DNA of 64,000 nucleotides from Microbulbifer pacificus (GTDB taxonomy: Bacteria > Pseudomonadota > Gammaproteobacteria > Pseudomonadales > Cellvibrionaceae). Each line of letters opens with the position of its first letter. Within the stretch, counting starts at the first letter, position 1. The position numbers and the translations under genes are program-made. This document shows, piece after piece, positions 23,991 through 45,097 of this stretch. Location: assembly GCF_033723955.1 (NCBI RefSeq), contig NZ_CP137555.1, positions 1,709,501 through 1,773,500 of the forward strand, in the 5' to 3' direction. A model generated the notes under the pieces. That model did no database searches. It worked only from the letters and a program-made list of their open reading frames with translations, and had not been told where the DNA came from.

Positions 23991-24047
23991 GGGCCTATAG
24001 CTCAGTTGGTCAGAGCAGTCGACTCATAATCGATTGGTCGCAGGTTC
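23991..24047 (+). pseudogene. Truncated tRNA(CAU), Ile2-like, 3' third missing
   Basis: The acceptor 5' strand GGGCCTA, D-arm (GCTC...GAGC), anticodon arm GTCGA-CTCATAA-TCGAT with anticodon CAU, variable loop and 5' T-stem GCAGG-TTC are all present, after which homology stops abruptly. No TAGGCCC-ACCA 3' half occurs downstream. The anticodon loop is uninterrupted here, unlike in the intact copy 230 bases downstream. It cannot form an acceptor stem and is most likely a relic of recombination or element insertion at the tRNA locus. Confidence 0.85.
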
Positions 24048-24066
24048 TTATGTAAGGTAGTTTCTG

Positions 24067-24150
24067 TTTGCACCTTTATTTGAGCCGAAAGCGAGAGGTG
24101 TCGCGGGGAAGAGCCCTGTTTTGGCTTTTGCACATTTATAATGGCCGAAA
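24067..24150 (+). repeat. Imperfect direct repeat before the intron-bearing tRNA
   Basis: Two 24-base units, 24067-24090 and 24127-24150, share the pattern TTTGCAC-TTTAT-----GCCGAAA (19 of 24 identical), offset by exactly 60 bases. The second unit includes a TATAAT (24137-24142) that could serve as the -10 of the tRNA downstream. Confidence 0.45.
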
Positions 24151-24224
24151 CGGATAAAAAGTGTACAGATTTAGCACTTAAAATTTAGGTCGCAAGTGAG
24201 GTAAACTCACCATCCCTTGGAAAT

Positions 24225-24546
24225 GGGCCCTTAGCTCAGTTGGTTAGAGCACCCGACTCATAGTTTTAATTGTGACCCGCTGTAGTAATACAGCGTGGAA
24301 AAATCGGATGAATTGCTGGAAAGCTAAGTTTCGTAAGAAATATGCCGATCAGCAGCCAAGCTCAGGAAGCGTCCTGAGAAGGTTCAGAGACTAGGTGGTG
24401 TGACGCGATCTCGTCACGTAAGACACCAACAGCGTCCGACACCCAAACAGATAAAGCTGAGGGTGATGATATAGTCCAGGCCATAACGAAAGTTATGGAT
24501 TACCAGAATCGGTAGGTCCCCAGTTCAAGCCTGGGAGGGCCCACCA
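24225..24546 (+). tRNA. tRNA(CAU), probably tRNA-Ile2, split by a group I intron
   Basis: Exons 24225-24261 and 24507-24546 form a 77-nt tRNA with encoded CCA. The acceptor stem is GGGCCCT/AGGGCCC, the D-stem GCTC/GAGC, the anticodon loop CTCATAA and the T-arm CCCAG-TTCAAGC-CTGGG. The anticodon is CAU. The C4-G69 and C5-G68 acceptor pairs are those read by TilS, which makes lysidine-34 in tRNA-Ile2, so Ile (AUA codons) is favoured over elongator Met; this is inference. Pair 27-43 is a C-U mismatch. The intron interrupts the loop directly after anticodon base 36. Confidence 0.92.
24262..24506 (+). ncRNA. Group I intron (245 nt, IC3-like) in the tRNA anticodon loop
   Basis: The core elements are visible in order. 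P2 is CGCTGTA-GTAA-TACAGCG (24278-24295). The P and Q strands are TTGCTGGAAAGC and CAGCAGCCAAGC. P6 is CTCAGGA/TCCTGAG (24361-24378). R is CAGAGACTA (24385-24393) and S is GATATAGTCC (24468-24477), giving P7 GACTA/TAGTC. P9 is CCATAAC-GAAA-GTTATGG (24481-24498). Splice sites fit the rules: the 5' exon ends in U36 pairing with G24272 (P1: TCAT with GTGA at 24272-24275), the intron ends in G24506, and ATT 24269-24271 can pair with exon AAT 24507-24509 (P10). No endonuclease gene is carried. It closely resembles the Azoarcus tRNA-Ile(CAU) intron. Confidence 0.93.
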
Positions 24547-24792
24547 TTTCCAAACCCCACCCTCCCGCTCAGTACGAAGCGAAATTCTCGGTGAAGGCCT
24601 TGCAGCAAAAGCCTGCAATCTCATTTTCTATATTTTTCCCTCAGATAGACGCCACCTCAGGGCTAGCTCTTCCAGAACACCCACGGGCCAGCTCATAAAA
24701 TATCAGCTGAACTTGCAAAATAGTGCGCCAGTTCACGCTGCATGTGAATCTTTTTGTGCGTCAAACCCATACATCTAAATAAGATTAGACAC

Positions 24793-25017
24793 ATGATTCG
24801 CTGCCATCTCGTCCGCATGATGGGCGAGCACAAAACGCGTATTGCCGACGTTGCAAGAGAAACGGGGTTAAGCCGCGCCACAGTGACCTTGCTGTATAAA
24901 CAGACAGCACAGAAAGTGGATCTGGAAGCCATTGAACAGATCTGCGTACTATTCCATTGCACTGTGGGCGACCTGCTGGAGTTGGTGCCAAACCCAAATG
25001 ACCACGGAGTATCCTGA
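24793..25017 (+). CDS. Small XRE-type helix-turn-helix regulator
   Basis: The 74-aa protein consists of one Cro/CI-like HTH (ADVARETGLSRATVTLLY, about residues 19-36) with a C-terminal FHCTVGDLLELV tail typical of the antitoxin-like regulators placed just upstream of type I restriction genes. I chose ATG 24793 (MIRCHLVRMM), the usual N terminus of this family; the frame extends to 24754. Its TGA overlaps the ATG of hsdR by one base, so the two are translationally coupled. It probably controls restriction gene expression. Confidence 0.8.
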   Translation: MIRCHLVRMMGEHKTRIADVARETGLSRATVTLLYKQTAQKVDLEAIEQICVLFHCTVGDLLELVPNPNDHGVS

Positions 25018-26120
25018 TGGCATCTGAAGCAGATACCCGAGCAAATTTTATCGATCCAGCCTTACGGGCAGAAGACTGGCAACCCAGCAATACCATTCGG
25101 GAGCATTACTTCACCGACGGCAGAAAGATGGCTGAAGGCATACGTGGGCGACGATGCTTCGTGGATTACTTGCTTCACAAAGACAACCGCCACTTGGCTG
25201 TAGTAGAGACCAAGAAAGAATCCGAGCACCCAACTAAAGGCCTGCAACAGGCCATTGACTATGCGAACAAGCTCCACGTTCGTTTCGTCTATTCTAGTAA
25301 CGGCAAACAAACCTACGAATTCGATCTGGAAACAGGTAAAGGCGATTACATTGAGTTCTACCCAACGCCTACTGAGCTGGAAAAGCGTTATGCCGGTGAA
25401 ACCACAGATTTAAGTCAGGAACTGAGAAACATCCCCTTCCATTTAGAAGGGGCCATGCAGCCACCTTATTACCAAGAGCTGGCAGTTCATGCGGCTACCG
25501 ATGCCATCGGCAAAGGCAAATCCCGCATTTTGCTCACACTGGCCACCGGTACCGGTAAAACCTTCATCGCCTTTCAAATTGTTCATAAGGTATTTCAGGC
25601 GCGCTGGAACCGAAATAACCCCGGTTCACGCAGGCCACGCGTTCTGTTTCTGGCCGACCGTAATATCCTGGCCGACTAGGCTATTAACACCTTCAACCCT
25701 TATGAAAAAGACCTGATCAAAATCAATGGCGAGGAGGTGCGCAAACGCAATGGTGTGGTGCCAACCAACGCCCACATTTTTTTTGCTATTTATCAGGCGA
25801 TTGCAGAAAGGGAAAACATCGATGGCTATTACAAAGCCTATCCCAAGGATTTCTTTGATCTGGTTTTGATAGATGAATGTCACCTTGGTGCTGCCAATGA
25901 AGCGGGCTCCTGGCGAGCCATTCTTGATCATTTCAGTAGCGCCGTGCATATGGGCTTAACAGCCACTCCGAAACGCACGGACAACGTGGACACCTATGAA
26001 TACTTTGGCCAGCCCGCTTATATTTATTCACTAAAAGACGGCATCAATGACGGCTTCTTAACGCCCTACCGGGTTAAGGGGTTCAGTGGTAGCCAGTGGT
26101 CGGAGCTCCAATCAACCTAG
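25017..26120 (+). pseudogene. hsdR: Type I restriction enzyme R subunit, interrupted and truncated
   Basis: The reading frame shows the HsdR nuclease motif (FVDY ... VVETKK), Walker A LATGTGKTF near residue 178, then an in-frame TAG at 25677-25679 where the family has Gln (LAD-Q-AINTF), consistent with a single C-to-T change. Beyond it the same frame continues with DECH (VLIDECHLG) and motif III GLTATPKR. Homology ends near YRVKG (about 26075), where the next cassette begins. About half of the protein, including helicase motifs V-VI and the C-terminal HsdM contact region, is lost. No hsdM or hsdS is present, so restriction is inactive. Confidence 0.9.
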
Positions 26121-26344
26121 TCCAAAGGGGTGTTTTTAGGGGGCAATAAATCCGCTGGTTCGCAATCTATTGCGATGGCGATGCGATAGACCTTCTCAAG
26201 GGTAACCCCCACTATCCCACGCTCGATCCGACTCATATGGCTACGATCGATCCCTGCCCGCAAGGCCAGAGCTTCTTGTGAGATTCCCCTCTTCTTCCTC
26301 TCGATCTTGACCCTTTGGCCGAAAAGAGACCCTAGTCTGGTCAC
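26117..26344 (-). CDS. XRE family repressor of the helicase cassette (GTG start)
   Basis: The 75-aa protein is a single Cro/CI HTH domain (SQEALALRAGIDRSHMSRIERG, split over about residues 22-43) with the AIAIDCEPADLLPP tail. It starts with GTG at 26344. It is divergent from a 182-aa gene and a helicase gene across a 96-base region holding a sigma70-type promoter, an arrangement typical of autoregulated defence cassettes. Its end overlaps the last bases of the truncated hsdR frame, which marks the cassette boundary. Confidence 0.85.
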   Translation of the reverse strand: MTRLGSLFGQRVKIERKKRGISQEALALRAGIDRSHMSRIERGIVGVTLEKVYRIAIAIDCEPADLLPPKNTPLD

Positions 26345-26384
26345 GTCTGCTACCCATCATATGCCAGCAGGCATTCTTCCCCTG

Positions 26385-26413
26385 TTGAGGACTATTCGGC
26401 CACGGCATATAAT
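26385..26413 (+). promoter_or_regulatory. Sigma70-type promoter, TTGAGG-N17-TATAAT
   Basis: A -35 TTGAGG (26385-26390) and perfect -10 TATAAT (26408-26413) with 17-base spacing precede the 182-aa gene. The predicted start near 26420 leaves only about 20 bases of leader without a clear ribosome site. Confidence 0.65.
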
Positions 26414-26440
26414 CCTCTTTTCCTTATGATGTGACCCTTT

Positions 26441-26989
26441 ATGTCTGCTGCAGTAAGAAATGAGATCCTTTTGGAGATACTCCAAGAACTCAGGGATGAG
26501 CAAATTGTTGTAACCCGCGTTAGAGATGAACTTGCAAAAAGAGCCCCAGCTACCGGTTTAGATCGGGCAGCGCTGCGCCGCTGGGTGAATAGCAAATTTG
26601 CCAGTTTTGCCCGAAAAGGCTGGCTTGATCGCTTTCACTTTGACGGTTCGAACAGAGTCTATTTTTTAGCCGGACCGAACCTACCGAACTACAGCACCAC
26701 CCCGCGAAACCCAAAGAGTAAAAGTGACTTTGCCCAAACTGAAGAATCGCTCCCCTCTCAATCCAGCTCGATATCAAAGCAATTGATGCATGAACTTAGC
26801 CAGCACAGTTTGTCTGTGGTCAGCCAATTAAGTGAAATAGAAGAGTACAAAAGGATCAGAGATTCATATCCCGAACTTAGGGAAATGGCTTCAGCACGCT
26901 TTAATGCAGCGGTTGATGAAAACTGCCGAACACTGGGAAAGGTGAAAGCTCTTGAGAGCCTCATAGAGAAGCTCGGAAATTCAGTATGA
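26441..26989 (+). CDS. Unrecognised 182-aa protein coupled to an SF2 helicase
   Basis: I do not recognise this family. The first 75 residues look like a winged-helix DNA-binding fold (EILLEILQELRDEQIVVTRV, LRRWVNSKFASFARKGWLDR, then a VYFLAG wing strand). A polar Ser/Pro-rich linker (about residues 85-110) follows, and then a C-terminal, probably coiled-coil helix (SQLSEIEEYKRIRD, RFNAAVDENCR). Its TGA overlaps the ATG of the helicase gene (ATGA), so the two are made together. A DNA-sensing or adaptor role for the helicase is plausible but unproven. Confidence 0.75.
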   Translation: MSAAVRNEILLEILQELRDEQIVVTRVRDELAKRAPATGLDRAALRRWVNSKFASFARKGWLDRFHFDGSNRVYFLAGPNLPNYSTTPRNPKSKSDFAQTEESLPSQSSSISKQLMHELSQHSLSVVSQLSEIEEYKRIRDSYPELREMASARFNAAVDENCRTLGKVKALESLIEKLGNSV

Positions 26990-28422
26990 AACTGAGGAAC
27001 TGGCAATCCAATTGTATTGGCCTCGCCCTTCATAAATACCAATCTGGCGAGGATAATTTCTTTGCTGTTGCCACACCAGGTGCAGGGAAGACAACAATGG
27101 CTTCAGTATTAGCCGCAGAGCTTCTAAAAAGTAATTTAGTAGATTTAATTCTATGCCTTACGCCTACACAGGCAACTAAAAACAGCTTCGCAGAAGATCT
27201 GGCTCATCATACTGGAAGAAGTATGAACGGCAGCATTGGATCGCACGGGATTGTACTGACCTATCAGTCGCTCGGATTCTTAGAGGAAGATTTTTGGTCG
27301 CTTTTTAGTAAATACAGAATCTTTGTCATATTTGATGAGATTCATCACTGCGGTGGTGACACCTCAATACTTGGAAACGCTTGGGGAGAAATAATACTCG
27401 ACAAAATAAGTGACCGTGCACAATTTACCCTTTCGATTTCTGGTACACCTTGGCGTTCTGACAAATTACCCGTAGCACTTGCACGGTATTCAAATAATAC
27501 TGGAATACTTGAGTCGGATTATATCTATGGCTTGCAGGAGGCCATCCGAGACAAGGTATGTCGTATTCCGCGCATAATAGCAATTGACAACAGCGGGATA
27601 TCCGTAACTCGAAATTCTGAAAATAGTGAATCTCGATATAAAAGCATTAGGGATTTTCTCAATGCAGAAAAATTACCATTACAATTGTTGTTAAACAATC
27701 CCGATATACAGGAAGATATACTAGGTAGAGCTATCAGCAAGCTTAGTAGAATTAGAGAATTCGATTGTAATGCCGCAGGATTAATAGTTGCATCCTCTGT
27801 CGCGCATGCAGTATCGATCCGTAAAATATTGGAAGAAACCTATGCTGTGCCATCAGTATTAATTACACACAAAACACCCAATGCAAACAACGTATTAGAA
27901 AATTTTAAGAATTCATCGGATCAATGGGTAATATCTGTTGGCATGATTAGTGAGGGTACAAATGTTCCTAGATTGCAAGTATGCTGTCATTTATCAAGAA
28001 TAAAAACTGAGTTACATTTCAGGCAGGTATTGGGAAGAATACTGCGCGTGACGCCAAACAATTATCCCTATGCTTATATGTTTATTGTAGCTGAACCGAA
28101 ACTATTGGAATTTGCCAATAGGGTTCAAGACGATTTACCTTGTGAAGCTGCAGTGGTAAATGTATTAAACCCAAGAGAAGTGCGGTTGTCGTCCGGGCAA
28201 ACTAAAGAGTGCATTGACTCTTCGGATTTAATTGATTCCCGAGTACACTCGTCCAGAGTTGACAGTCATCCAGGCATTTCCCTGGATGAAATTACGCCGA
28301 CATCAATCCCATCACTCATTAAAATAGATGATTTTCAGAGACAGTGCGAAACAGGGATATCAGTATTTGGAAGCTTTATGGAAGAATTGATTTCCATGAA
28401 GTCTATATTTGATGAAGGGTAA
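26986..28422 (+). CDS. DEAD/DEAH-box SF2 helicase-like protein
   Basis: The 478-aa protein has the SF2 motif series: Q/I region WQSNCIGLALHKYQ, Walker A TPGAGKTT near residue 31, Ia LCLTPTQ, II FDEIHHCGG near residue 117, III SGTPWR near residue 152, a V-like SVGMISEGTNVPRLQV near residue 318, and VI FRQVLGRILR near residue 346. Its closest style is ResIII/type I-III restriction helicases, but no nuclease motif is apparent. Codon use is AT-rich against the core genome. With the XRE gene and the 182-aa partner it forms a compact three-gene cassette that looks like an anti-phage or plasmid-control module. Confidence 0.85.
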   Translation: MKLRNWQSNCIGLALHKYQSGEDNFFAVATPGAGKTTMASVLAAELLKSNLVDLILCLTPTQATKNSFAEDLAHHTGRSMNGSIGSHGIVLTYQSLGFLEEDFWSLFSKYRIFVIFDEIHHCGGDTSILGNAWGEIILDKISDRAQFTLSISGTPWRSDKLPVALARYSNNTGILESDYIYGLQEAIRDKVCRIPRIIAIDNSGISVTRNSENSESRYKSIRDFLNAEKLPLQLLLNNPDIQEDILGRAISKLSRIREFDCNAAGLIVASSVAHAVSIRKILEETYAVPSVLITHKTPNANNVLENFKNSSDQWVISVGMISEGTNVPRLQVCCHLSRIKTELHFRQVLGRILRVTPNNYPYAYMFIVAEPKLLEFANRVQDDLPCEAAVVNVLNPREVRLSSGQTKECIDSSDLIDSRVHSSRVDSHPGISLDEITPTSIPSLIKIDDFQRQCETGISVFGSFMEELISMKSIFDEG

Positions 28423-29071
<649 letters not shown>

Positions 29072-29098
29072 GCCCCATCCTTAAAAATATATACATAA

Positions 29099-30250
29099 CT
29101 AAAGTGTATAGTTTTCATACCTTATAACATATTTTGCAAGCAGTAGAATTATTGAAATCATAGTCATTATTATCAAAATTAATGGTAATGACTGAGATAA
29201 ACTCGAATTTAAAAAAATTTCAATTATTAATGGCGCCGTCAAAACACCTAAGTATCCGAATGTACCAATGGCTAATACGGCTGTGGTGGGCGGCATATCG
29301 GATTGGGAGTCTGCTCGACGAAATAGGATAGGAATAACATTTGACATTCCTAGGGCGATTAAGAATAACCCTGCGGAATAAAGAGTGACCCCTTTTTCAA
29401 AAAGTAGGAGCATACATCCAACAATAGAAATTATGCCTCCCCAAAATAGTACTGATCTATTTCCAAATCGCATGATGGTGCTATCACCAAGAAAACGACC
29501 AGTAAGAACCCCCAATACCGTTGCCAAACCGGTCAAACATACATTTGCCGTGAATGATTGAACTTTGGCAAAGTTCACAAAAACGCACCAGTATAAAATT
29601 GCACTTTCGACAAAGAATAAGACTGCAGCCAAAAGAGCGGATACTAGTATTTCCCCCCTGGGGAAAATGAGGAAGAAAGTAAGTTTTCCCTCAGTTTTAG
29701 GCAAAAAAACTAAGGCAAAGACAAATATGACCATGAGAATTAGAGAGATGGATAGAATTCCATCAAAAAATAAGTAGGTACTTATCGAACCCAAGAACAA
29801 CAATAAACCACCTGAAATAATGCTTCCTAGGCTGAATAATCCATAAAATTTGGAGAGCAGCCATCGATCTGATCTCCGCTCCATTTCTGCTGAGTAGTAG
29901 TTCATCGTAAAAATTAGTACGCCGAGGGAGCTTCCATAAATAGTCAATACCCCTGTTAGTAAAATGGAAGAGCTAGCGTATGGAAGAGTCAACAGGCAAA
30001 GCACGAGAGCTAACCCGGCTGACATTAAGACCCATCTGCTATCTATGCGACTTGAGCTCAATATGGCCAAGACTGCTGTAGCTGAACTGGCACTTAAGAT
30101 AGATAGCCACTGCTTGAGCGTGTAAGGATCCGCACCTAAGCGCTGATTTGTAAGTTGAATAATGAATATCCAACAGGAAAAACCCACTCCTGCCGCCATA
30201 AATAGTGCTTTTGTTGATAAATAGTTGGGTAAGAAGCTGGAAGGCTGCAT
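29099..30250 (-). CDS. MFS transporter
   Basis: The 383-aa protein is almost entirely hydrophobic with about twelve predicted membrane helices and a central hydrophilic loop around KTEGKLTF (about residue 187), consistent with the major facilitator superfamily. The substrate cannot be read from sequence; the upstream DeoR regulator and sugar-type acetyltransferase suggest a carbohydrate or derivative. It is AT-rich. It lies last in a minus-strand series after the DeoR gene with a 196-base gap, so it may have its own promoter. Confidence 0.8.
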   Translation of the reverse strand: MQPSSFLPNYLSTKALFMAAGVGFSCWIFIIQLTNQRLGADPYTLKQWLSILSASSATAVLAILSSSRIDSRWVLMSAGLALVLCLLTLPYASSSILLTGVLTIYGSSLGVLIFTMNYYSAEMERRSDRWLLSKFYGLFSLGSIISGGLLLFLGSISTYLFFDGILSISLILMVIFVFALVFLPKTEGKLTFFLIFPRGEILVSALLAAVLFFVESAILYWCVFVNFAKVQSFTANVCLTGLATVLGVLTGRFLGDSTIMRFGNRSVLFWGGIISIVGCMLLLFEKGVTLYSAGLFLIALGMSNVIPILFRRADSQSDMPPTTAVLAIGTFGYLGVLTAPLIIEIFLNSSLSQSLPLILIIMTMISIILLLAKYVIRYENYTL

Positions 30251-30446
30251 ACAAAACTTTCCGGTGACAGAGGCTATAAAAACCTGTAATGATTATGTTT
30301 TTTAGTTTTCTAAGAATACGTATTTATTGTGTAGTTACGCTTTGTATCCGCGAAGCCACTTACAGGAATAATGCTTGGTGAATAAATGTTTTCATTCACT
30401 TGTACATTAACTTTCCGAGTTCAAAAAATTGGGCCTATCAATAGAC

Positions 30447-31214
30447 TCAATCTGAAAGAATGGTTTTCCCTATGCCAACTAACGCGTCAACTTCTTCTTT
30501 TGGGCAGTCCTTGTCAAGGATGAACTGATCTATATCCTCAATTTCCGAAAATTTATGTCGGGCTCTCGTCCCCATTTTCTCTGCTGTAACGATTACAGTC
30601 CTTTGGCGACTCGAGGATACTAGCGTTCGCTTGAAACTGGCATCTGCATGATCAAATGCACTGACTCCAGATTGAAAGGAAACGGCACAAGCACCGATAA
30701 ACGCGCGATCAATATTCATTTGACTGAGACTGTAAATAGCTGAAGCATCAACGGATCCTCCTATTTGATTGTTAACCGTTCCTCCAATTAGGATCAGAGA
30801 CAAGTCTTTTCTTGTCAGAAGCGCTGATCCAATTAGGATTGAGTTGGTGGCGACTGTTAAGTTGTAATCTTTTGGGAGTAGGCCTGCCAACACAAGGTGA
30901 GTGCTGCTGTTATCAAGAAATATAAATTCATCGGGCTGAATTGTGGAAGCTGCTATTTCCGCAAGTGCGGTTTTCTTCTCTTGCCCTTCCTTTATTCGAT
31001 CCGTTATTGGTGTATTGGCGGGAGATATTGGGAGAGCTCCACCATAAACCCGGCGACATAGCCCATCGGTTGCGAGCGCTCGCAAGTCTCGACGTATCGC
31101 ATCTTCCGATACGCCAAACTCGACTGCCAATGTTGCTGCGACTACAGCTTCGCCCCCGAGTAAACGTTCTGCGATTCGATCGCGTCTTGCCAGCGGAATA
31201 TCACTTTTGTTCAT
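30447..31214 (-). CDS. DeoR family transcriptional regulator
   Basis: The 255-aa protein has the N-terminal DeoR HTH (LAVEFGVSEDAIRRDLRALA, about residues 28-47, followed by RRVYGGALP). Its C-terminal DeoRC sensor domain has the phosphosugar-binding DNSSTHLVLAG near residue 102 and GGTVNNQIGGSVD near residue 145. Such proteins repress sugar catabolic genes and are released by a phosphorylated sugar. It begins 7 bases after the acetyltransferase stop, so the two are one transcription unit, and it probably controls this unit and the MFS gene. Confidence 0.9.
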   Translation of the reverse strand: MNKSDIPLARRDRIAERLLGGEAVVAATLAVEFGVSEDAIRRDLRALATDGLCRRVYGGALPISPANTPITDRIKEGQEKKTALAEIAASTIQPDEFIFLDNSSTHLVLAGLLPKDYNLTVATNSILIGSALLTRKDLSLILIGGTVNNQIGGSVDASAIYSLSQMNIDRAFIGACAVSFQSGVSAFDHADASFKRTLVSSSRQRTVIVTAEKMGTRARHKFSEIEDIDQFILDKDCPKEEVDALVGIGKTILSD

Positions 31215-31220
31215 TTCGGA

Positions 31221-31814
31221 CTACTTTTTGTCTGATGATATTGTGCGTATCACGCGACATGGATTACCTGCCGCAAAGACATCGGAAGGTATATCTCGAG
31301 TCACAACGCTTCCTGCACCTATCACGGACCGGGAACCGATATTAACCCCAGGGCATATGATTGCTCCCCCCCCTACCCAAACGTCAGAACCGATGGAGAT
31401 TGGTTTGCCAAACTCCTCTGAACGGCGCAATTCTGCATCCAGAGGGTGCATTGCTGTGTATACCTGCACAGCTGGGCCGAACAAGACATTGTTGCCGATG
31501 CTCACTTGGCATACATCGAGGACAACGCAGTTGAAGTTGAAAAAACAGTCTTTGCCAAGACTAATATTGGTGCCGTAATCGCAGAAGAATGGTGGTTGCA
31601 CCCAGACACTCTCACCACCGGCTCCGAATAACTCACGCAAGATACGGCGGCGCTCCTCCTGATCCCTCTCCCTACTTGCGTTTAGATCCCGACATAGATC
31701 CCTAGCGCGTTCTCGGGCGGTGACAAGTACCGAATCTCGAGGATCGTAGAGCTCTCCTGCCAGCATTTTTTCTTGCTCATCTCTTGCCACAACTGCCCCA
31801 CCTCTTGTTTGCAT
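31221..31814 (-). CDS. Maltose/galactoside O-acetyltransferase-like protein
   Basis: From ATG 31814 the protein is 197 aa, with an N-terminal Maa domain (EQEKMLAGELYDPRD) and a left-handed beta-helix of hexapeptide repeats (ISLGKDCFFNFNCVVLD, VSIGNNVLFGPAVQVYT, ISIGSDVWVGGGAIICPG). The catalytic His lies in YTAMHPLDAE near residue 120. Enzymes of this type transfer acetyl from acetyl-CoA to sugars. An ATG at 31847 is in frame but gives an atypical extension. It leads the acetyltransferase-deoR(-MFS) group at the right end of the AT-rich island. Confidence 0.88.
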   Translation of the reverse strand: MQTRGGAVVARDEQEKMLAGELYDPRDSVLVTARERARDLCRDLNASRERDQEERRRILRELFGAGGESVWVQPPFFCDYGTNISLGKDCFFNFNCVVLDVCQVSIGNNVLFGPAVQVYTAMHPLDAELRRSEEFGKPISIGSDVWVGGGAIICPGVNIGSRSVIGAGSVVTRDIPSDVFAAGNPCRVIRTISSDKK

Positions 31815-32084
31815 ACATTTCTGCCTATCCCGTGCATGATTGTGCACACTTATACATGTTTGTAAACGGTTATTGTCCGAGATATGGCCTTTCCTGAAGG
31901 AAGAGCCCGTTAAGAAGCAGGCCTGGAAGATTGGGGCAAGTCACTGGACTCTAGAAAAATGTTGGCTTCATTGCGCATTCAGCGAAACTTTTTTCATACC
32001 GCTCGCAGTAAATCCCATTGCCGCTGCCTACTTGCGAAAATTTATACTGGCACCAGTTTTCAAGCCTTGTAATCCCGGTGCCCC

Positions 32085-33161
32085 ATGAACCAACGAGCCA
32101 TTCCCTATATGCATTTGCGCGGCGGCAGTTCGAAAGGATTGTATTTTCTGGCCGCGGACTTGCCCGCTGAAGCGTCGCTGCGGGACCAGTGGCTGCTGGA
32201 TATTGTGGGGCGTGACAGCCGTCAGATCGACGGCCTCGGCGGCGGTGATCCGCTGTCCAGTAAGGTGGCCATTGTGGGCCCAGCCACCCGGGAAGATGCG
32301 GATGTCGATTATCTGTTTGTCCAGGTGGTGGTGGGTGAGAACCGTGTGGATACCACACCAAACTGCGGCAATATCCTCGCCGGCGTGGGGCCCTTTGCGA
32401 TCGAATCCGGCCTGTTCCCGGCACAGGATTCCGAAACCCGCCTGCGCGTGCACATGGTCAACAGCGGCAAAGTCTGCGAACTGGTGTTGCAGACTCCCGG
32501 TGGAGCAATGAATTACGCCGGCAATGCCCGTATCGATGGGGTGCCGGGCACCTCCGCCCCGGTGATTTGCAATTACATGGACGTAGCCGGTTCCGCCTGT
32601 GGTTCGCTGTTGCCAACGGGAAATGTAATCGACGTGGTCGATGGTATCGAAGTGACCTGTGTCGACAACGGTATGCCCGTGGTGGTGCTGCGCGCTACGG
32701 ACCTGGGGATTCGAGGCGATGAACCGCCGGCAGAACTCAACGCCAATAATGCGCTTAAACAGAAGCTGCAATCCATTCGCCTGCAGCTGGGGCCAAAGAT
32801 GAATCTGGGCAACGTGGACGGCGCGGCGGTGCCGAAAATGTGCCTGATTTCGGCGCCGCAGCAGGGCGGTGTGATCAACACCCGCACGTTTATTCCCTAC
32901 CAGTGCCATACCTCCATCGGCGTACTCGGTGCCGTATCGGCGGCAACCGCCTGCATTCTGCCCGGGTCTGTGGCCGAGGGTATCGCCCGACTGGTGGAAG
33001 GCAATCCACTGCAACTGTCGGTGGAGCACCCTTCCGGAGAGTTCTCTGTCAGCCTGGACATCGATCGCGACGGTGACCTGCCGGTGGTCCGCCAGGCCGG
33101 ATTATTGCGTACTGCCCGCCTGCTGAGTCGCGGCGACTTATATCTTCCCGAATCCTGTTGA
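32085..33161 (+). CDS. galD: 4-oxalomesaconate tautomerase (GalD/LigU, PrpF fold)
   Basis: The 358-aa protein belongs to the PrpF/DapF-like isomerases: it begins [16 protein letters not shown], has [15 protein letters not shown] near residue 49, [10 protein letters not shown] near residue 92 and [10 protein letters not shown] near residue 147. In the protocatechuate 4,5-cleavage or gallate pathway this enzyme tautomerises or isomerises 4-oxalomesaconate between LigI and LigJ. The adjoining galC (10-base gap) and the lig genes 5 kb downstream support this role over methylaconitate isomerisation. It starts where GC-rich sequence resumes after the accessory island. Confidence 0.88.
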
Positions 33162-33171
33162 GGAAATTTGC

Positions 33172-33873
33172 ATGAAAACCGTAGCCATCAAGCATATCGA
33201 GCGCGCCCGCATTGAAGCCGCAACCTCCCTGGGAAAGCTGGGTGTGGCCACGGTGCATGAAGCGCAGGGGCGTGTGGGGCTGTTGAAACCCTATATGCGT
33301 CCCATTTACCCCGGCGCGCGTATTGGCGGTACCGCGGTGACCATAATGGCGCAGCCCGGTGACAATTGGATGCTGCATGTGGCCATCGAGCTGTGCCAGC
33401 CGGGCGATGTGCTGGTGGTTGCCTGTACCACAGACAATACCGACGGCATGTTCGGCGACCTGCTCGCGACCTCGGCAAAAGCGCGCGGTGTGCGCGGACT
33501 GATTATCGACGCCGGTTGCCGCGATGTGTGCGAGCTGCAGGAAATGGATTTTCCGGTTTGGTCCCGCGCGATTTCCGCTAAAGGTACGGTGAAGAACACT
33601 TTGGGGGCGGTGAATGTACCGGTGGTGTGTGCCGGCCAGCTGATTTACCCAGGCGATGTGGTGGTGGCGGATGACGATGGCGTAGTTGTGGTTGAGCGAG
33701 CGCAGGCCGAGTCCGTGATGGAAGCCGGGATTGCGAGGGAAGAACTGGAAGCGCAAAAGCGGGACAAACTCGCCGCCGGTGTACTGGGTATCGATCTGTA
33801 CAATATGCGCCCGCGCCTTGAAGAGCACGGCTTCAAGTATCTGGATACCCTGGACGATTATTTCAAATCGTAA
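33172..33873 (+). CDS. galC: 4-carboxy-4-hydroxy-2-oxoadipate aldolase / oxaloacetate decarboxylase
   Basis: The 233-aa RraA-fold class II aldolase (LigK/GalC/ProA) cleaves CHA to pyruvate and oxaloacetate, the last step of 4,5-cleavage. It shows [12 protein letters not shown] near residue 23, the [13 protein letters not shown] metal/substrate loop near residue 87, [10 protein letters not shown] near residue 110 (substrate-binding Arg and metal-binding Asp) and [13 protein letters not shown] near residue 161. It is directly downstream of galD with an appropriate ribosome site (TTGAGGAAA). The end converges with the AraC gene. Confidence 0.92.
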
Positions 33874-33897
33874 ATCCTGAAGGCGGCGCTGGCGCTT

Positions 33898-37349
<3,452 letters not shown>

Positions 37350-37410
37350 AAGGTTTTCTCATTATTGGGCGATTCTCTTCGTTGCAAGAATACCGCCGGA
37401 TTTCGTCTGT

Positions 37411-37421
37411 ATACAGTGTAT
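37411..37421. promoter_or_regulatory. Candidate LysR-type operator, ATAC-N3-GTAT
   Basis: The interrupted palindrome ATACAGTGTAT (37411-37421) lies in the 210-base divergent region between the double-HTH LysR gene and the lig operon, and contains the T-N11-A pattern of LysR sites. No other dyad is as clear in this gap. Confidence 0.4.
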
Positions 37422-37559
37422 TTTTAGAGTTTTCACCTGGTGTCGTCGACAGTAGAGAAGCTGCATGGACTGGGCAAACGTAAAACACAATAACTTTTTT
37501 CATGGCTGTGTAACGCTATTCCATTGGCTCGGATACAGCCCTCTGTTTAGTCTGTCGGC

Positions 37560-38468
37560 ATGAAAAACATATCCATTACCAAAATCTGCTTACTGGGATT
37601 CGGCGAGGTGGGTCAGGTGCTCGCGCGCGGCCTGCATGCACACGCGCCGCACCTGAAGCTGCGGGTCACGGACAAATTACTGTTGAAGCCCGGCAGCCGC
37701 GCCCGTCGCGCAATGGCCGATTACCCCGGCATCGAATTCGAGGAGCTGCCAGCGCTTGCGGTGCAGGGTTGCGAACTGGTGATTTCGGCAGTCACTGCCG
37801 GGCAGGCGCTGGCTGCGGCGGAGAGCCTGCTGTCTGGGCTGGAGCCGGGGGCTTTCTTTCTGGATCTGAATTCTGTCTCCCCGGGCACCAAGCAGCGACT
37901 GGCGCAGTGCATCGACGCCGAGGGCGGGCGCTTCGTAGAGGCATCGATCATGTCGCCCATCGAGCCCGCGCGCCTGCAGTCACCGATATTGCTCGGCGGC
38001 CCCCACGCGCAGGAATTTTTGCCGCTGGGGCAGGCGCTGGGGTTCAGTGGCATGCGCTTCTGCAGTGAACAGGTGGGCCGCGCCGCCGCCACCAAAATGT
38101 GCCGCAGCGTCATGATCAAGGGAATGGAAGCGCTGATTGCCGAATCTCTGCTCTCTGCCCGTCACTACGGTGTGGAGAGCGCGGTACTGGAATCCCTCAG
38201 CAACCTGTTTCCCATGCCGGACTGGCCGGCCCATGCCCGCTACATGATTTCCCGCAGCGTGGAGCACGGTGCGCGTCGTGCCGAAGAAATGCGAGAAGTT
38301 GCCCGCACGGTACAGGAGGCCGGGATATCACCGCATATGAGCAGCGGCTGTGTGGAGCGGCAGGAATGGGCGGCGGGGTTCAAACCGGTGCTGCAGCACC
38401 AGGAGCTGGTCCCGATGCTGAATGCGATTCTCGATCAGATAAACGAGCTGGAAAAAATCCATGAATAA
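37560..38468 (+). CDS. NAD(P)-dependent oxidoreductase, 6PGDH-like with DUF1932 domain
   Basis: The 302-aa protein has an N-terminal Rossmann motif (CLLGFGEVGQVLARGL), FLDLNSVSPGTK near residue 101, and a helical C-terminal domain of the DUF1932 type (AATKMCRSVMIKGMEALIAE near residue 180). It belongs to the beta-hydroxyacid dehydrogenase/6-phosphogluconate dehydrogenase fold. It is the first gene of the lig operon and overlaps ligJ by 8 bases. Its substrate is unknown; a side reaction on a 2-hydroxy or 2-oxo acid intermediate is plausible. Confidence 0.85.
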   Translation: MKNISITKICLLGFGEVGQVLARGLHAHAPHLKLRVTDKLLLKPGSRARRAMADYPGIEFEELPALAVQGCELVISAVTAGQALAAAESLLSGLEPGAFFLDLNSVSPGTKQRLAQCIDAEGGRFVEASIMSPIEPARLQSPILLGGPHAQEFLPLGQALGFSGMRFCSEQVGRAAATKMCRSVMIKGMEALIAESLLSARHYGVESAVLESLSNLFPMPDWPAHARYMISRSVEHGARRAEEMREVARTVQEAGISPHMSSGCVERQEWAAGFKPVLQHQELVPMLNAILDQINELEKIHE

Positions 38469-39492
38469 GCCATTGATTATCGATTGTCACGGTCACTACA
38501 CCACGGCGCCGGCGCCGCACCAGACCTTCCGCGAGGCACAACTCGCGGCTTTTGCGGGCGGTCAGCCGCTGCCAAACCCGCCGTCCATCAGTGACGACGA
38601 AATCCGCGAGAGCGTGGAGGAAAACCAGCTGCGCCTGTTGCGCGAGCGCGGTGCGGACATGACCATCTTTTCCCCGCGCGCATCGGCCATGGCACACCAC
38701 GTAGGCAATGAAGCGGTGTCCCAGCAGTGGACACGCGCCTGCAATGATCTGATCAAGCGCGTGGTGGATCTCTACCCGGAACACTTTATCGGCGTGTGCC
38801 AGCTGCCCCAGTCGCCGGGGGTTTCCATTGCGAACTCCATCGACGAGCTGGAACGCTGCGTCAACGAGCTGGGCTTTATCGGCTGCAACCTCAACCCGGA
38901 CCCCTCCGGCGGTCACTGGACTTCCGCGCCGCTGACTGACAAGAGCTGGTATCCCTTCTTTGAAAAAATGGTCGAACTGGATGTGCCGGCCATGATCCAC
39001 GTATCCGGCTCGTGTAATCACAATTTCCACGCCACCGGTGCCCACTACATCAATGCCGATACCACCGCGTTTATGCAGTTTATCGAGGGCGACTTGTTCC
39101 GCGATTTTCCTGAACTGCGATTTATCATCCCCCACGGCGGCGGCGCCGTGCCCTATCACTGGGGGCGTTATCGCGGTCTCGCCGACATGTTAAAGCGCCC
39201 GCCGCTGGCTGAGCATGTAATGAAAAATGTCTACTTCGACACCTGCGTCTATCACCAGCCGGGTATCGACCTGCTGTTCAAGGTGATCGATATCGACAAC
39301 ATTCTGTTCGGCTCGGAAATGGTGGGTGCGGTGCGCGGTATCGATCCACAAACCGGTCAATATTTCGATGACACCAAACGTTACCTTGAAGCGCTCGATC
39401 TCTCAGAAGAAGACCGTTACAAAGTATTCGAAGGCAACGCTCGCCGGGTTTACCCGCGTTTGGATGCATCTCTGAAAGCGCGGGGTCGCTGA
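38461..39492 (+). CDS. ligJ: 4-oxalomesaconate hydratase
   Basis: The 343-aa amidohydrolase-fold protein matches LigJ, which hydrates 4-oxalomesaconate to 4-carboxy-4-hydroxy-2-oxoadipate. Metal ligands are visible in DCHGHYTT at residues 8-15, MIHVSGS near residue 178 and PHGGGAVPYHWGR near residue 222, with a late LFGSEMVGAV segment. It overlaps the preceding DUF1932 gene by 8 bases and is followed one base later by ligI, so translation is coupled. It is the LigJ type, not the unrelated PIG-L-type GalB hydratase of Pseudomonas putida. Confidence 0.93.
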   Translation: MNKPLIIDCHGHYTTAPAPHQTFREAQLAAFAGGQPLPNPPSISDDEIRESVEENQLRLLRERGADMTIFSPRASAMAHHVGNEAVSQQWTRACNDLIKRVVDLYPEHFIGVCQLPQSPGVSIANSIDELERCVNELGFIGCNLNPDPSGGHWTSAPLTDKSWYPFFEKMVELDVPAMIHVSGSCNHNFHATGAHYINADTTAFMQFIEGDLFRDFPELRFIIPHGGGAVPYHWGRYRGLADMLKRPPLAEHVMKNVYFDTCVYHQPGIDLLFKVIDIDNILFGSEMVGAVRGIDPQTGQYFDDTKRYLEALDLSEEDRYKVFEGNARRVYPRLDASLKARGR

Positions 39493-39493
39493 G

Positions 39494-40394
39494 ATGAGTG
39501 AAAAATTTACCATGGATGCCGACTGGCTGCAGTACCACCCGGCACCAGTTAAACCGAGTTACTGCCCACCAGCGGGGGCGGTGGATGCCCACTGCCACGT
39601 ATTCGGCCCTGGCGATCAGTTTCCCTATGCCCCGCAGCGCAAATACACCCCCTGCGATGCGTCGAAGGATCAGCTGTGGGCGCTACGCGAACACCTTGGT
39701 TTCAGTCGCAATGTGATTGTGCAGGCTACCTGCCACGGTGCTGATAACCGCGCTCTGGTGGACGCCCTGGAGCACTCCGATGGGCGCGCCCGCGGTGTGG
39801 CCACGGTGACGGAGGATATTACCGAGGAAGAACTGCAGGCGCTTCACGCCGCCGGCGTGCGCGGTGTGCGCTTCAATTTCGTCAAGCGTCTGGTGGATGC
39901 GCTGCCATTCGATACCCTCGGCGCCATCGCCGACAAGATCAAACCGCTGGGCTGGCACATTGTGATTTACTTCGAATCTCAGGAGCTGCCCGAGCTGTAC
40001 GATTTCTTCACCTCACTGCCCACCACCGTGGTGGTGGATCATATGGGCCGCCCGGATGTCAGCAAGCCGGTCGATGGCGAAGAGTTCAATCTGTTCGTCA
40101 AGTTACTGACGGAGAATGAAAATTTCTGGTCCAAGGTGAGCTGTCCGGAGCGCCTGTCGCAAGTTGGCCCTCACGGCTACGACGACGTGGTGCCTTTTGC
40201 CCGCCGTATCGTGGAAACTTTTCCCGACCGCGTATTGTGGGGAACCGACTGGCCGCACCCGAATATGAAAAGTCATATGCCGGACGATGGTGAACTGGTG
40301 AATATGATTCCGCGCATCGCGGTTACGGAAGAACTACAGCGCAAACTGCTAGTGGATAACCCGATGCGTCTTTACTGGCCGGAGGAAGTCGACT

Positions 40395-40408
<14 letters not shown>
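39494..40408 (+). CDS. ligI: 2-pyrone-4,6-dicarboxylate hydrolase
   Basis: The 304-aa amidohydrolase opens the lactone ring of PDC, the product of LigC. DAHCHVFGPG near residue 31 gives the metal-site histidines, GVRGVRFNFVKRL near residue 120 and VVDHMGRPD near residue 178 are typical of LigI, and WGTDWPHPN near residue 248 contains the catalytic Asp. It overlaps ligA by 14 bases. LigI can act without bound metal in Sphingobium; nothing here suggests otherwise. Confidence 0.95.
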
Positions 40409-41647
<1,239 letters not shown>

Positions 41648-41718
41648 CCGCTGGTGCGTGCGTCCTTACGCCGAAGCAAGCGGGAAAACTCTGATTCAAA
41701 GATTAAGGTAAATCATCC

Positions 41719-42663
41719 ATGAAAATTGCATTGGCCGGCCCCGGCGCGTTCGGTATTAAACATCTGGAGGCCATCCGAAATATCGATGGCGTAGAAGTTA
41801 TATCCCTGATCGGACGCGATTTGGACAAGACACAGGCGGTTGCAGATAAATATGGCATCGGCCACATTGGCACCAAACTGGAACAAGCGCTGGCACTGCC
41901 CGAAGTGGATGCGGTGATTCTGTGTACGCCAACACAAATGCACGCGGCCCAGGCCATCCAGTGTATGAAGGCGGGCAAGCATGTCGAAGTTGAAATTCCA
42001 CTCGCGGATAGCTGGGCCGAGGCGGAGGAAGTACTCAAAGTGCAGCGGGAAACCGGTAAGGTGTGTATGGTCGGCCACACTCGCCGTTTCAATCCATCGC
42101 ATCAGTATGTGAATAAAAAACTGCGCGCGGGCGAACTGAGTATCCAGCAGATGGATGTGCAGACCTATTTTTTCCGGCGCACCAATACCAATGCGCTCGG
42201 CGCACCCCGCAGCTGGACCGATCACCTGCTGTGGCATCACGCTGCGCACACGGTGGACCTGTTTGCCTATCAGACCGGTGAAAGAATCGTTGCCGCCAAC
42301 GCCATGCAGGGCCCACGACACCCTGAGCTGGACATCGCCATGGATATGTCTATCCAGATGAAATCTGAATCCGGTGCCCTGTGTACCCTGTCGTTGTCTT
42401 TCAACAACGACGGACCGCTGGGCACCTTCTTCCGCTATATCTGCGATAACGGCACCTACATCGCCCGTTACGACGATCTGGTCAATGGCAAGGAAGAGCC
42501 GATCGACGTGTCCAACGTGGATGTGTCCATGAACGGCATCGAGCTGCAGGACCGCGAGTTTTTTGCGGCCATCCGCGAAGGGCGCGAACCCAATTCAAGT
42601 GTGGCTCAGGTGTTGCCCTGCTATAAGGTGCTCTACCACCTCGAACAGCAGTTGACCGATTGA
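41719..42663 (+). CDS. ligC: 4-carboxy-2-hydroxymuconate-6-semialdehyde dehydrogenase
   Basis: The 314-aa Gfo/Idh/MocA-family enzyme oxidises the cyclic hemiacetal of CHMS to PDC with NADP. The N-terminal Rossmann motif is ALAGPGAFGIKHL, followed by AVILCTPTQMHA near residue 70 and HVEVEIPLADSW near residue 92, where the family's EKP motif is replaced by EIP, as in LigC. HTRRFNPSH and WHHAAHTVDL complete the pattern. It is 71 bases after ligB and precedes an aldo/keto reductase. Confidence 0.94.
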   Translation: MKIALAGPGAFGIKHLEAIRNIDGVEVISLIGRDLDKTQAVADKYGIGHIGTKLEQALALPEVDAVILCTPTQMHAAQAIQCMKAGKHVEVEIPLADSWAEAEEVLKVQRETGKVCMVGHTRRFNPSHQYVNKKLRAGELSIQQMDVQTYFFRRTNTNALGAPRSWTDHLLWHHAAHTVDLFAYQTGERIVAANAMQGPRHPELDIAMDMSIQMKSESGALCTLSLSFNNDGPLGTFFRYICDNGTYIARYDDLVNGKEEPIDVSNVDVSMNGIELQDREFFAAIREGREPNSSVAQVLPCYKVLYHLEQQLTD

Positions 42664-42701
42664 TTCGCAGAAAATCGTATGAACATATAAAGGTAAGCCC
42701 A

Positions 42702-43688
42702 ATGCAGCGTCGCCGCATCTGCAATATTGAAGTGCCAGCCATCGGCCTGGGCTGTATGAATCTGAGCCACGCCTATGGCACGCCACCGGATGCACAGGCG
42801 GCAACGGCGCTGTTGCAGCGCGCGTTCGATATTGGCGTACGCCACTTCGACACCGCGGCACTCTACGGATTCGGCGCCAACGAACGTCTTGTGGGTAAGG
42901 CGCTTAGGTCCCTGCGCAACGATATCCATCTGGCGAGCAAATGCGGTATGACCGGCGTGGATGGCAAGCGGGTGATTGACGGCCGTCCTGAAACACTGTT
43001 GAAAACCCTGGATGAGGCATTGCAGCGGCTGCAGACAGACCATATCGATCTGTATTACCTGCATCGCTGGGATAATAACGTACCCATTGAAGACAGTGTG
43101 GGCGCACTCTCGCGGATGGTGGAGTCGGGCAAGATTGGGGCGATTGGCCTGTCGGAAGTTAGTGCCACGACGCTGCGTAAGGCCCACGCGGTGCACCCCA
43201 TCGCCGCAGTGCAAACGGAATATTCCCTCTGGACACGCAATGCAGAAATCGCGGTGCTGGATGCCTGCCGGGAGCTGGGCGCGGCGTTTGTAGCCTTCTC
43301 TCCGGTAGCGCGGGGCTTTCTCGCAGGCTCCGTGAAGAATCCGGGAAATTTTGCCGACAAGGATATTCGCCGGCAGATGCCGCGATTTCAGTCGCCGCAC
43401 TTCGACAGAAACACGCAGTGGCTGGGGGATATTGCCGCACTGGCGCAGGAGGCCGGGTGCAGTATGGCCCAGCTGGCGCTGGCCTGGCTACTGGCTCAGG
43501 GCGAGTATATTCTACCTATTCCCGGAACCACGTCCCTCGCACACCTGGAGGAAAACCTGGGCGCAGCTTCACTGCGGATTGACAGCGACATTCTGCGGCG
43601 GGCCGGAGAATTGGTAAACCACAACACCGTCAGCGGTGCGCGTTACCCGGCTGCAACTCAGGTGGAAATCGACACCGAGGAATTTTAA
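42702..43688 (+). CDS. Aldo/keto reductase
   Basis: The 328-aa NADPH-dependent enzyme has the AKR signatures: GLGCMNLSHAYG near residue 14, the active-site Asp and Tyr in DTAALYGFGANE near residue 50, the Lys in LASKCGM near residue 78, and DLYYLHRWD near residue 116 (His). The C-terminal PIPGTTSLAHLEENLGA segment binds the cofactor. ATG 42702 follows AAAGGTAAG. It lies 38 bases after ligC in the same orientation, so it may reduce an aldehyde by-product of the lig pathway; the substrate is unknown. Confidence 0.9.
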   Translation: MQRRRICNIEVPAIGLGCMNLSHAYGTPPDAQAATALLQRAFDIGVRHFDTAALYGFGANERLVGKALRSLRNDIHLASKCGMTGVDGKRVIDGRPETLLKTLDEALQRLQTDHIDLYYLHRWDNNVPIEDSVGALSRMVESGKIGAIGLSEVSATTLRKAHAVHPIAAVQTEYSLWTRNAEIAVLDACRELGAAFVAFSPVARGFLAGSVKNPGNFADKDIRRQMPRFQSPHFDRNTQWLGDIAALAQEAGCSMAQLALAWLLAQGEYILPIPGTTSLAHLEENLGAASLRIDSDILRRAGELVNHNTVSGARYPAATQVEIDTEEF

Positions 43689-44158
43689 GTCGTGGTTGTA
43701 CAAATACGCCGCTTGACTTTTGGGTGCCTGCCAGGTCGGGAAAAGTTGTTTGAAAATCAGGCTTTTTCCCCGGTGCTACCGCTGGGAACTTGAGTGCAGG
43801 TCGGCAAAAGACGTCTTTATTCCACCTATTTCTCTGCTGTTCAGCAGCGTTCAGAGTGTTGCCAGGTCCCCTTCTGAATTACTTTCTGTCTTGAGAGAGG
43901 AAATTGAAATTGATACTCAATTCAATGGGAACCTACCAGCCGATCACGCCTCTGTCGCCCCACCAAAGATCAATCGCTTGAATCTTTGGGAGCGAGATAG
44001 AGGAATACGTAAATATTTAACGATGCGGAGCAGCTGGACAGGTATCTGGAGGGTATGAAGAAACATCAGCCAGCTTCATAAACTGGATTTTTTTGTTTCT
44101 TCATCGAATTCCCGTCGACCTCTGAAAGACTAATTGGAACGAATAGATACCAATAAAT
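43689..44158. other. Gap with a possible decayed coding remnant
   Basis: These 470 bases separate the lig operon from the next catabolic cluster. A 112-codon frame (43720-44058) has no recognisable domain. Its last part (EEIEIDTQF, INRLNLWERDRGIRKYL) seems to continue in another frame as NDAEQLDRYLEGMKKHQPAS before a stop near 44080, which would fit a frameshifted relic. A functional gene is not supported. Confidence 0.35.
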
Positions 44159-45016
44159 CTACACAAGCAGACCTTCAGGAAGTGGTAGCTCCTCTTTCAC
44201 AAATAGATCCAACTCAAGCTCTCCCTCACCGGGCACAGTTCTATATCCTCGAAGATCACTGATTCCAGCATTCGCCAGTACTGCTTCATCGATCAGGTGA
44301 TGACCGGTGAACTCACGACTGGGCTTGGTTAATATAATATAAGCGGCATCAGCCATGATTTCCGGAGTTCTGCTACGTGCGATACCTTCTTCTCCAGCGA
44401 CTATATTTTTTACCGCTGCAGTTGCGATCAAGGTCTTCGGCCAAAGAGTATTAAATGCGATACCTTCGTCAATAAACTCTTTGGCCATCGCCATAGAATA
44501 TATGCTCATAGCATACTTGGACATTGCGTATGCCGGATAAGGAGCAAACCACTCTGGCACAAGATCAAGCGGAGGGGCAAGGGTCAGCACGTGCGCATTT
44601 TCAGCCTTCTTGAGATGGGGAATACACGCACGAGAGACCAAATAGGTGCCGCGCGAATTAATCTGATGCATCAGGTCGTATCGTTTGGAATCGGTATCCA
44701 GTGTCGATGTGAGGCTGATTGCGCTTGCGTTATTAATGCAGATATCAATTCCACCAAAATGGGCAGCAGTCTTTTCTACCGCCGCTTCAATCTGGTCTGC
44801 GTCTCGGATATCGCAAATCAGCGGCAATGCTTTTCCGCCTGCGCGTTCTATTTCCTCGGCTGCGGTATAGATTGTTCCAGGGAGCTTTGGGTTCGGCTCT
44901 GCGGTTTTAGCAGCAATTGCGATCGATGCACCATCTCTTGCGGCTCGCTTTGCAATCGCAAGCCCGATACCGCGCGATGCCCCAGAAATAAACAAGGTTT
45001 TACCGGTCAAGGACAT
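44159..45016 (-). CDS. Short-chain dehydrogenase, citronellol-dehydrogenase/HSDL2-like
   Basis: From ATG 45016, preceded by AGGAGG, the protein is 285 aa. It has the classical SDR motif TLFISGASRGIGLAIA at the N terminus, DICINNASAI near residue 89, and a YAMSKYAMS active-site Tyr-x-x-x-Lys near residue 161. The AAKTAEPNPKLPGTIYTAAE stretch near residue 36 is characteristic of AtuB/HSDL2-type SDRs that act on long branched or terpenoid alcohols and acyl substrates. It is downstream of the LLM flavoenzyme gene (81-base gap) on the same strand and probably co-transcribed with it. Confidence 0.88.
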   Translation of the reverse strand: MSLTGKTLFISGASRGIGLAIAKRAARDGASIAIAAKTAEPNPKLPGTIYTAAEEIERAGGKALPLICDIRDADQIEAAVEKTAAHFGGIDICINNASAISLTSTLDTDSKRYDLMHQINSRGTYLVSRACIPHLKKAENAHVLTLAPPLDLVPEWFAPYPAYAMSKYAMSIYSMAMAKEFIDEGIAFNTLWPKTLIATAAVKNIVAGEEGIARSRTPEIMADAAYIILTKPSREFTGHHLIDEAVLANAGISDLRGYRTVPGEGELELDLFVKEELPLPEGLLV

Positions 45017-45097
45017 AGTACGCCTCCTGATAATGTACGACTGTATTAAAAGGCGATGCTTGAACGAGTTCAAACATTCGCCAAGTCAATTTATGAG

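Follow-up and report, generated by a model that had tools for sequence, protein, structure and literature searches.

A group I intron in a tRNA gene of Microbulbifer pacificus very probably belongs to a replacement tRNA-Ile2 on a mobile island of 59 kb that has split the native gene, a reading drawn from sequence comparison. The window analysed here is a stretch of 64,000 nucleotides, and a position in the genome (G000) equals the window position plus 1709500. The intron by itself is ordinary, and introns of this kind are already known; what stands out here is its surroundings, namely a split native gene together with a whole intron-bearing replacement. Vibrio and Alteromonas show this arrangement as well, and betaproteobacteria have another form of it.

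The Rfam model RF00028 (Intron_gpI) matches positions 24250-24498 over its full length (model positions 1-253) at 98.1 bits, against a gathering score of 50 (cmscan, E 3.8e-24), and this is the only RF00028 match with E <= 0.001 in the 4.19-Mb genome. ARAGORN, run with introns allowed, predicts a tRNA(cat) whose intron measures precisely 245 nt and, read as ctcat-intron-aatcg, follows anticodon U36. The sequence-only reading had placed a group I intron at 24262-24506 in the anticodon loop of a tRNA(CAU), splitting it exactly after base 36, and had proposed the Rfam covariance search as a check; both programs agree with it, ARAGORN returning identical boundaries. The R and S strands, the GAAA loop and the terminal G24506 that it described are all present in the sequence or in the Rfam alignment. 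Likewise, the U.G pair that it had noted at the 5' splice site (U24261 with G24272) closes a UCAU/GUGA pairing of exon and guide that is constant in all six aligned introns. Of the two marks of a group I intron found here, the U.G pair is read from the alignment and the terminal G from the ARAGORN boundaries; the terminal G of all 128 extracted introns (128/128) is built into the choice of boundaries and carries no evidence.

The 322-nt precursor folds 5.8 standard deviations below dinucleotide shuffles, with none of 100 shuffles as low. Among six aligned introns with their flanks, compensated changes occur in 31 of 85 predicted pairs, tRNA pairs included, a count that rests on the program's own consensus structure and leans towards that structure. 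In line with the earlier claim that no homing endonuclease is encoded, no open reading frame (ORF) of at least 60 aa overlaps the intron, which is putatively of subgroup IC3. The reading of an intron in the anticodon loop of tRNA-Ile(CAU) thus stands, while the broken tRNA-Ile2 starting 234 nt upstream and the 59-kb island were absent from it. The features are listed in Table 1.

Table 1. Features of the split native gene, the island and the intron-bearing tRNA, in window positions.
Feature	Position	Strand	Evidence and remarks
5' part of native tRNA-Ile2(CAU), cut after T-loop C56; left joint of the island	23991..24047	+	RF00005, 38.8 bits; match runs across the joint
Left end of the island, inverted relative to the right end	24048..24224	+	starts TTATGTAAGGTAG; 177 nt up to the replacement tRNA
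Window part of the 59.3-kb island (G000:C1:1733548-1792833)	24048..64000	.	recombinase trio and right end beyond the window
5' exon of the tRNA-Ile2(CAU) on the island, with anticodon U36 as its last base	24225..24261	+	ARAGORN
Group I intron	24262..24506	+	245 nt, terminal G; RF00028 match and ARAGORN
Internal guide GUGA, partner of UCAU in the exon, with U.G at the 5' splice site	24272..24275	+	alignment columns 14-17 with 28-31, unchanged in 6/6
P7, 5' strand region (R), CAGAGACTA	24385..24393	+	Rfam alignment; label R from the sequence-only reading
P7, 3' strand region (S), GATATAGTCC	24468..24477	+	Rfam alignment; label S from the sequence-only reading
3' exon of the island's tRNA-Ile2, ends CCA	24507..24546	+	ARAGORN

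The 5' part of the native gene ends GCAGGTTC at T-loop C56 and continues into TTATGTAAGG. The 3' part was predicted by complementarity and has a single match in the genome, with one mismatch, at G000:C1:1792834-1792857. The uninterrupted tRNA-Ile2 of the congener G014 aligns with the left and right parts, which overlap by GGTTC, and all 24 bases of the native 3' part are identical to it. Since the two parts flank the island and the gene is uninterrupted in G014, we conclude that the 59.3-kb island splits the native tRNA-Ile2. The island ends are inverted copies, with TTATGTAAGG on the left and its reverse complement TTATGTCAGG on the right (after CGG), and the intron-bearing tRNA sits 177 nt inside the left end. 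As in other tRNA islands, the target gene is split, its parts lie at both ends and an integrase is encoded inside. A gene-restoring fragment of the attP type is lacking at both joints, as C56 is followed by TTATG on the left and the 3' part on the right is not preceded by a tRNA 5' part. Both native parts stay broken, and the island carries a complete tRNA-Ile2 that appears to replace the gene. Among ten island proteins scanned, nine have a family, including PrpF, FAD-binding, LysR, aldo/keto reductase, sulfatase and AMP-binding families, and this sampled cargo looks catabolic. Just inside the island, a 220-aa ORF at 25017-25679 is apparently a truncated gene, since its match to an EcoAI-type restriction R subunit (240 bits) is confined to the beginning of that protein.

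Three adjoining genes near the right end of the island encode proteins of 444, 1070 and 220 aa. The 444-aa protein is a tyrosine recombinase (PF00589, 49 bits), and the 1070-aa protein has no family match at E 0.001; in an alignment of this protein with three relatives, motifs typical of tyrosine recombinases (R, HxxR, GH and Y) were recognized by eye in all four large proteins. Gamma-mobile-trio (GMT) islands are known to carry a three-gene recombinase operon. The window trio has such an operon in common with them, but its matches to GmtY and GmtZ are weak and far below the cut-offs: the 444-aa protein reaches 42.4 bits against an NCBIfam cut-off of 340 for GmtY, and the second proteins of two relatives reach 21 and 24.9 bits (the best being that of Alteromonas) against a cut-off of 600 for GmtZ. 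The 1070-aa protein of the window genome has no GmtZ match, and the third trio protein has no NCBIfam match. By sequence, the trio resembles the gamma-mobile-trio and falls outside its membership cut-offs; as a further difference, the joints found in the present islands all lie in tRNA-Ile2.

The five best BLAST matches to the window intron (74-81% identity) are the loci L138, L097, L190, L194 and L168. In four of the five, read by eye, a native tRNA-Ile2 is cut after C56 and followed by TTAT and then by a complete intron-bearing tRNA-Ile2; in L138, the native gene is cut in the variable loop and not after C56. A search for the joint only, which is independent of the intron and had the reversed pattern as its control, found 1 of 369 genomes across the class, that of the window (control, 3), and 4 of 227 genomes in the genus Vibrio (control, 1), two of them new (G631 and G642). 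All four Vibrio joints carry an intron-bearing tRNA 125-126 nt inside. Taken together, the seven exact-joint insertions all have the intron (7/7, five of them originally found through it), with the tRNA 124-177 nt inside, and the introns of the seven relatives, among them L138, match the Rfam group I model at 83-99 bits. Both ends were mapped for the window's island and for those of V. sinaloensis (12.6 kb) and Vibrio sp. 10N.286.49.B1 (about 16 kb); for Alteromonas, a search of 20 kb of the 21.9-kb contig did not find the right joint. In V. sinaloensis, the island exons show no difference from the native gene, either at the 56 positions of its 5' part or over its 3' part at the right joint. 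G059 and G642 have identical island tRNAs, which differ from both native genes. The V. sinaloensis element also encodes a SET-domain gene and a reverse transcriptase (L248, 12377-14859). G063 has an intact tRNA-Ile2 and, after it, the 3' portion of a group I intron together with a tRNA-Ile2 3' end (L165, about 313-640), and to judge from this order an intron-bearing copy seems to have been displaced.

The trios of four islands measure 444/1070/220, 465/1041/213, 480/1032/222 and 461/1358/220 aa. Their first recombinases are 31-38% identical (six pairs) and their second recombinases 24-29% identical (three pairs, a comparison that leaves out Vibrio 10N); the second recombinase of Vibrio 10N is 35% identical to that of V. 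sinaloensis, and G631 is closer to V. sinaloensis, at 64%. The four islands have kept the same cassette despite the 31-38% identity of their first recombinases, and because recombinases are only 24-38% identical between islands, the association of trio and cassette looks old. The 1041-aa recombinase (E <= 1e-30) occurs in three of the 227 Vibrio genomes, and all three have the joint. The large recombinase was found in three of six genomes tested, the misses being G058 (L138), G061 (L194) and G063 (L165, with its different layout). No recombinase was found in three of the eight gammaproteobacterial cases (G058, G061 and G642), which we put down to decay or draft gaps. The 1070-aa protein has two other relatives (49-51% identity) in the protein database, by a search that needs shared exact words and misses the Vibrio homologues.

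A scan of species genomes for the tRNA(CAU) intron pattern yielded at least 120 stretches, mainly from Beta- and Gammaproteobacteria by title, at least 115 of which are tRNA-like. A broken tRNA-Ile2 lies within 3 kb upstream at 16 of 134 intron-bearing tRNA-like loci (two of the 134 having less than 300 nt upstream), and in fifteen of the 16 at a distance of 144-472 nt; at L146 it is 2.7 kb away, which we did not count as the same layout. Ten of the 16 are betaproteobacterial (Polynucleobacter, Gulbenkiania, Leptothrix, Limnohabitans and others), with the native gene cut in or just after the anticodon loop, so that break and intron site nearly coincide. In three of 11 betaproteobacterial stretches (G659, G660 and G657), the native 3' half lies some 9 to 31 kb further downstream and the joint has CTCATAATC; in the other eight, no such half was found within the 6 to 42 kb searched. 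Against ORFs of at least 150 aa in these stretches, the trio profiles gave one weak match to the first protein (G656, 14 bits) and none to the other two, and a strict search for integrase motifs gave nothing. A 559-aa protein beside the right joint of G659 matches Phage_integrase at 22.3 bits, below the cut-off of 27.1. Polynucleobacter MWH-HuK1 (G665) has at least three intron-bearing tRNA-Ile2 copies (L294, L295 and L296), one about 27 kb after another, an arrangement that suggests stacked islands.

Phylogenetic analysis places the gammaproteobacterial island introns near those of viruses. The tree holds 128 of 151 extracted introns, 13 that are not tRNA-like and 10 with unclear boundaries having been dropped, and the eight gammaproteobacterial introns (the seven exact joints and L138) form one clade within it (100/99). 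Closest to this clade stands a tRNA intron of Klebsiella phage Muenster, followed by three introns from viral contigs, and these 12 rows, eight island-linked and four viral, group at 99/91. A separate clade is formed by 79 other genome-borne introns, mainly from Gammaproteobacteria, and the betaproteobacterial island introns fall in a third, to which the Azoarcus intron, itself not in the tree, would presumably belong. The phage link is provisional, because the program warned of long branches nearby and flagged the Muenster intron, like several of the island introns, for an unusual base composition. The tree and the pattern scan both bear out the earlier claim of kinship with other bacterial tRNA introns. 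In the phage record (MT708547.1), the Muenster intron lies unannotated in a tRNA(CAU) within a tRNA cluster (L236, 3001-3311; 104.1 bits). Altogether 44 phage records matched the query, five of them over at least 80% of it, and six were examined among the matches listed (15 of 44). A junction pattern sought in viral contigs returned 37 stretches, of which 31 failed a loose upstream filter and the six that passed were judged by eye to be chance matches without a tRNA 5' half.

The proximity of the Muenster and viral-contig introns, which are the nearest relatives outside the islands (99/91), would fit an island that acquired an intron-bearing tRNA-Ile2 from phages or from intron-bearing hosts, the intron having no role in the island and its loss needing a precise deletion. 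We regard this as a serious candidate, if one that is slightly less likely than not. It draws further support from replacements that have no intron: in the congeners G033 (L086, 1341-1576) and G001 (L074, 1427-1576), a tRNA-Ile2 is cut in the anticodon stem and a complete intronless copy follows 159 and 72 nt on, respectively. A mere passenger is, however, less readily squared with the presence of the intron in 7/7 exact-joint insertions (five found through it), with recombinases only 24-38% identical among the four islands compared, or with a betaproteobacterial class that also has the intron and, one weak match aside, no trio match in the stretches searched. The intronless copies of G033 and G001 make the intron optional for replacement, and on account of these two cases we set aside the rule that replacement depends on it. 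Only these two among 28 relative loci screened have such a neighbour, and the GTTCTTAT joint occurs in none of the 28. To judge from these sequences, whole-tRNA replacement is a wider habit at the tRNA-Ile2 locus.

A function for the intron, which we hold to be possible and on the whole unlikely, is that of shielding the attachment site: by splitting the island's tRNA gene as DNA, the intron would make the recombinase ignore it, preventing self-insertion and false excision, and splicing would restore the RNA. Because the V. sinaloensis island exons equal the native gene over both parts, the intron is there the visible difference between target and non-target, and betaproteobacterial native genes are broken within the anticodon loop or directly behind it, at the place that the intron occupies. 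In the gammaproteobacterial class, by contrast, the crossover is 20 bp from the intron; the G033 and G001 copies do without one; and self-insertions would be lost, and hence never seen.

The exons at 24225-24261 and 24507-24546 join into a clean 77-nt tRNA with CCA (ARAGORN), equal to the native tRNA-Ile2 of the congener G006 at 74 of 77 positions, and the genome encodes TilS (168 bits). Apart from a C.U mismatch at 27-43, the spliced tRNA is canonical as read from the ARAGORN output. Besides the two Ile2 genes, the genome has tRNA(CAU) genes that we read, from ARAGORN output, as two initiator-like, one elongator-like and one array tRNA, the last of ambiguous identity and located at 465 kb in a dense tRNA array (L032, G000:C1:462216-465341). 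The intron-bearing gene is, by its sequence, probably but not certainly the only AUA decoder of the genome: the other Ile2 gene is broken, but an extra tRNA(CAU) exists at 465 kb. We find it very improbable that the intron-bearing tRNA is a dead gene and that AUA is read by this array tRNA: the array tRNA and the C.U mismatch would be in keeping with such a state, but conservation, with compensated pairs, extends over the intron core, the splice-site pair and the exons, the spliced tRNA is canonical in all other respects, and the remaining CAU genes are initiator-like or elongator-like by reading. No sigma-70 consensus was found in 23880-24760, around the replacement tRNA, and its promoter is expected in 24048..24224 or further upstream. 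Finally, two adjacent tRNA-Ile2-like genes, one of them equal in its exons to the G006 gene at 74/77 positions, might recall a tandem duplication in which an ordinary second host copy stands beside a decayed one and the island is incidental, but we give this almost no credence, as it is already contradicted by the 3' part of the broken gene 59 kb away, by seven genomes that share this joint and a spacing of 124-177 nt, three of them with both island ends mapped, and by the island tRNAs of G059 and G642 that match each other and neither native gene.

On the reading we prefer, that of a replacement tRNA carried by a mobile island, the recombinases would act on the T-loop of the host tRNA-Ile2, joining it to a short attachment site centred on GTTC. 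Insertion would deprive the cell of its AUA decoder, and the island would therefore transcribe its own copy instead. In the transcript, the intron would fold, guanosine would attack after U36 and the exons would join into the 77-nt tRNA, whose C34 TilS would convert to lysidine, allowing AUA to be read. More generally, and as a speculation that we think rather more apt to fail than to hold, these islands may represent a class of mobile element that survives inserting into a gene the host probably cannot lose by bringing a whole replacement tRNA, shielded from its own recombinase by a self-splicing intron that leaves the gene hidden as DNA and whole as RNA; after decay of the island, the intron-bearing tRNA would stay as the host tRNA-Ile2, one way for such introns to spread without homing endonucleases.

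The intron of Azoarcus BH72 is a class IC3 intron of similar size that lies after U36 of tRNA-Ile, pairs a GUG guide with CAU and has no endonuclease gene. The window intron shares the tRNA, the insertion site, the guide pairing, the lack of an endonuclease gene and the approximate size, but unlike the Azoarcus intron it is borne by an island beside a split native gene, and it lies outside the betaproteobacterial clade of a tree built without the Azoarcus sequence. A 2014 review (PMC3984707) names the Azoarcus BH72 pre-tRNA-Ile intron and, in the passages used here, states that the phage introns observed to date are all in protein-coding genes. In the account accompanying Islander (PMC4383910), as far as its portions used here extend, the attP of tRNA-gene islands carries a fragment that restores the gene. 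The window island shares with such islands a tyrosine recombinase, a crossover in a tRNA gene (T loop or anticodon loop) and a split gene that marks both ends, but differs in leaving the native parts broken and bringing a whole tRNA gene with it; to that extent it departs from the published rule by which an island restores the tRNA gene that it interrupts. Excerpts of a review of archaeal recombinases likewise describe an intact tRNA gene being reconstituted and cite a suggestion that attP might carry archaeal tRNA introns along. Another related system is that of tmRNA genes whose T-loop holds a group I intron (PMC11915505); there, too, a self-splicing intron sits in a tRNA-like gene that is a frequent island target, and island-borne replacement copies are not described in the parts of that paper drawn on here. 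No title or abstract on island-borne, intron-bearing replacement tRNAs was found among the matches listed from the open-licence PMC literature. If the replacement is needed, the island would be hard to lose without any toxin or antitoxin, and would serve as a vehicle for tRNA introns that lack homing endonucleases. The arrangement also makes it testable whether anticodon-loop group I introns protect tRNA genes from integrases.

Among 58 relatives, group I introns occur in four genomes, namely that of the window, G026, G049 and G057, and by reading none of those in the latter three lies in tRNA-Ile2. Plasmids gave no match to the tRNA plus intron, and although 5387 of 5426 E. coli genomes match the query, none covers 80% of it. 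In E. coli plasmid records of 47.6-49.9 kb (H17-H25), nine of nine among the matches listed have an annotated tRNA-Ile that matches the query exons. In G049 (L056) and G057 (L057, just below the cut-off), which belong to the same order as the window's genome, the group I introns lie in tRNA-Leu-like genes.
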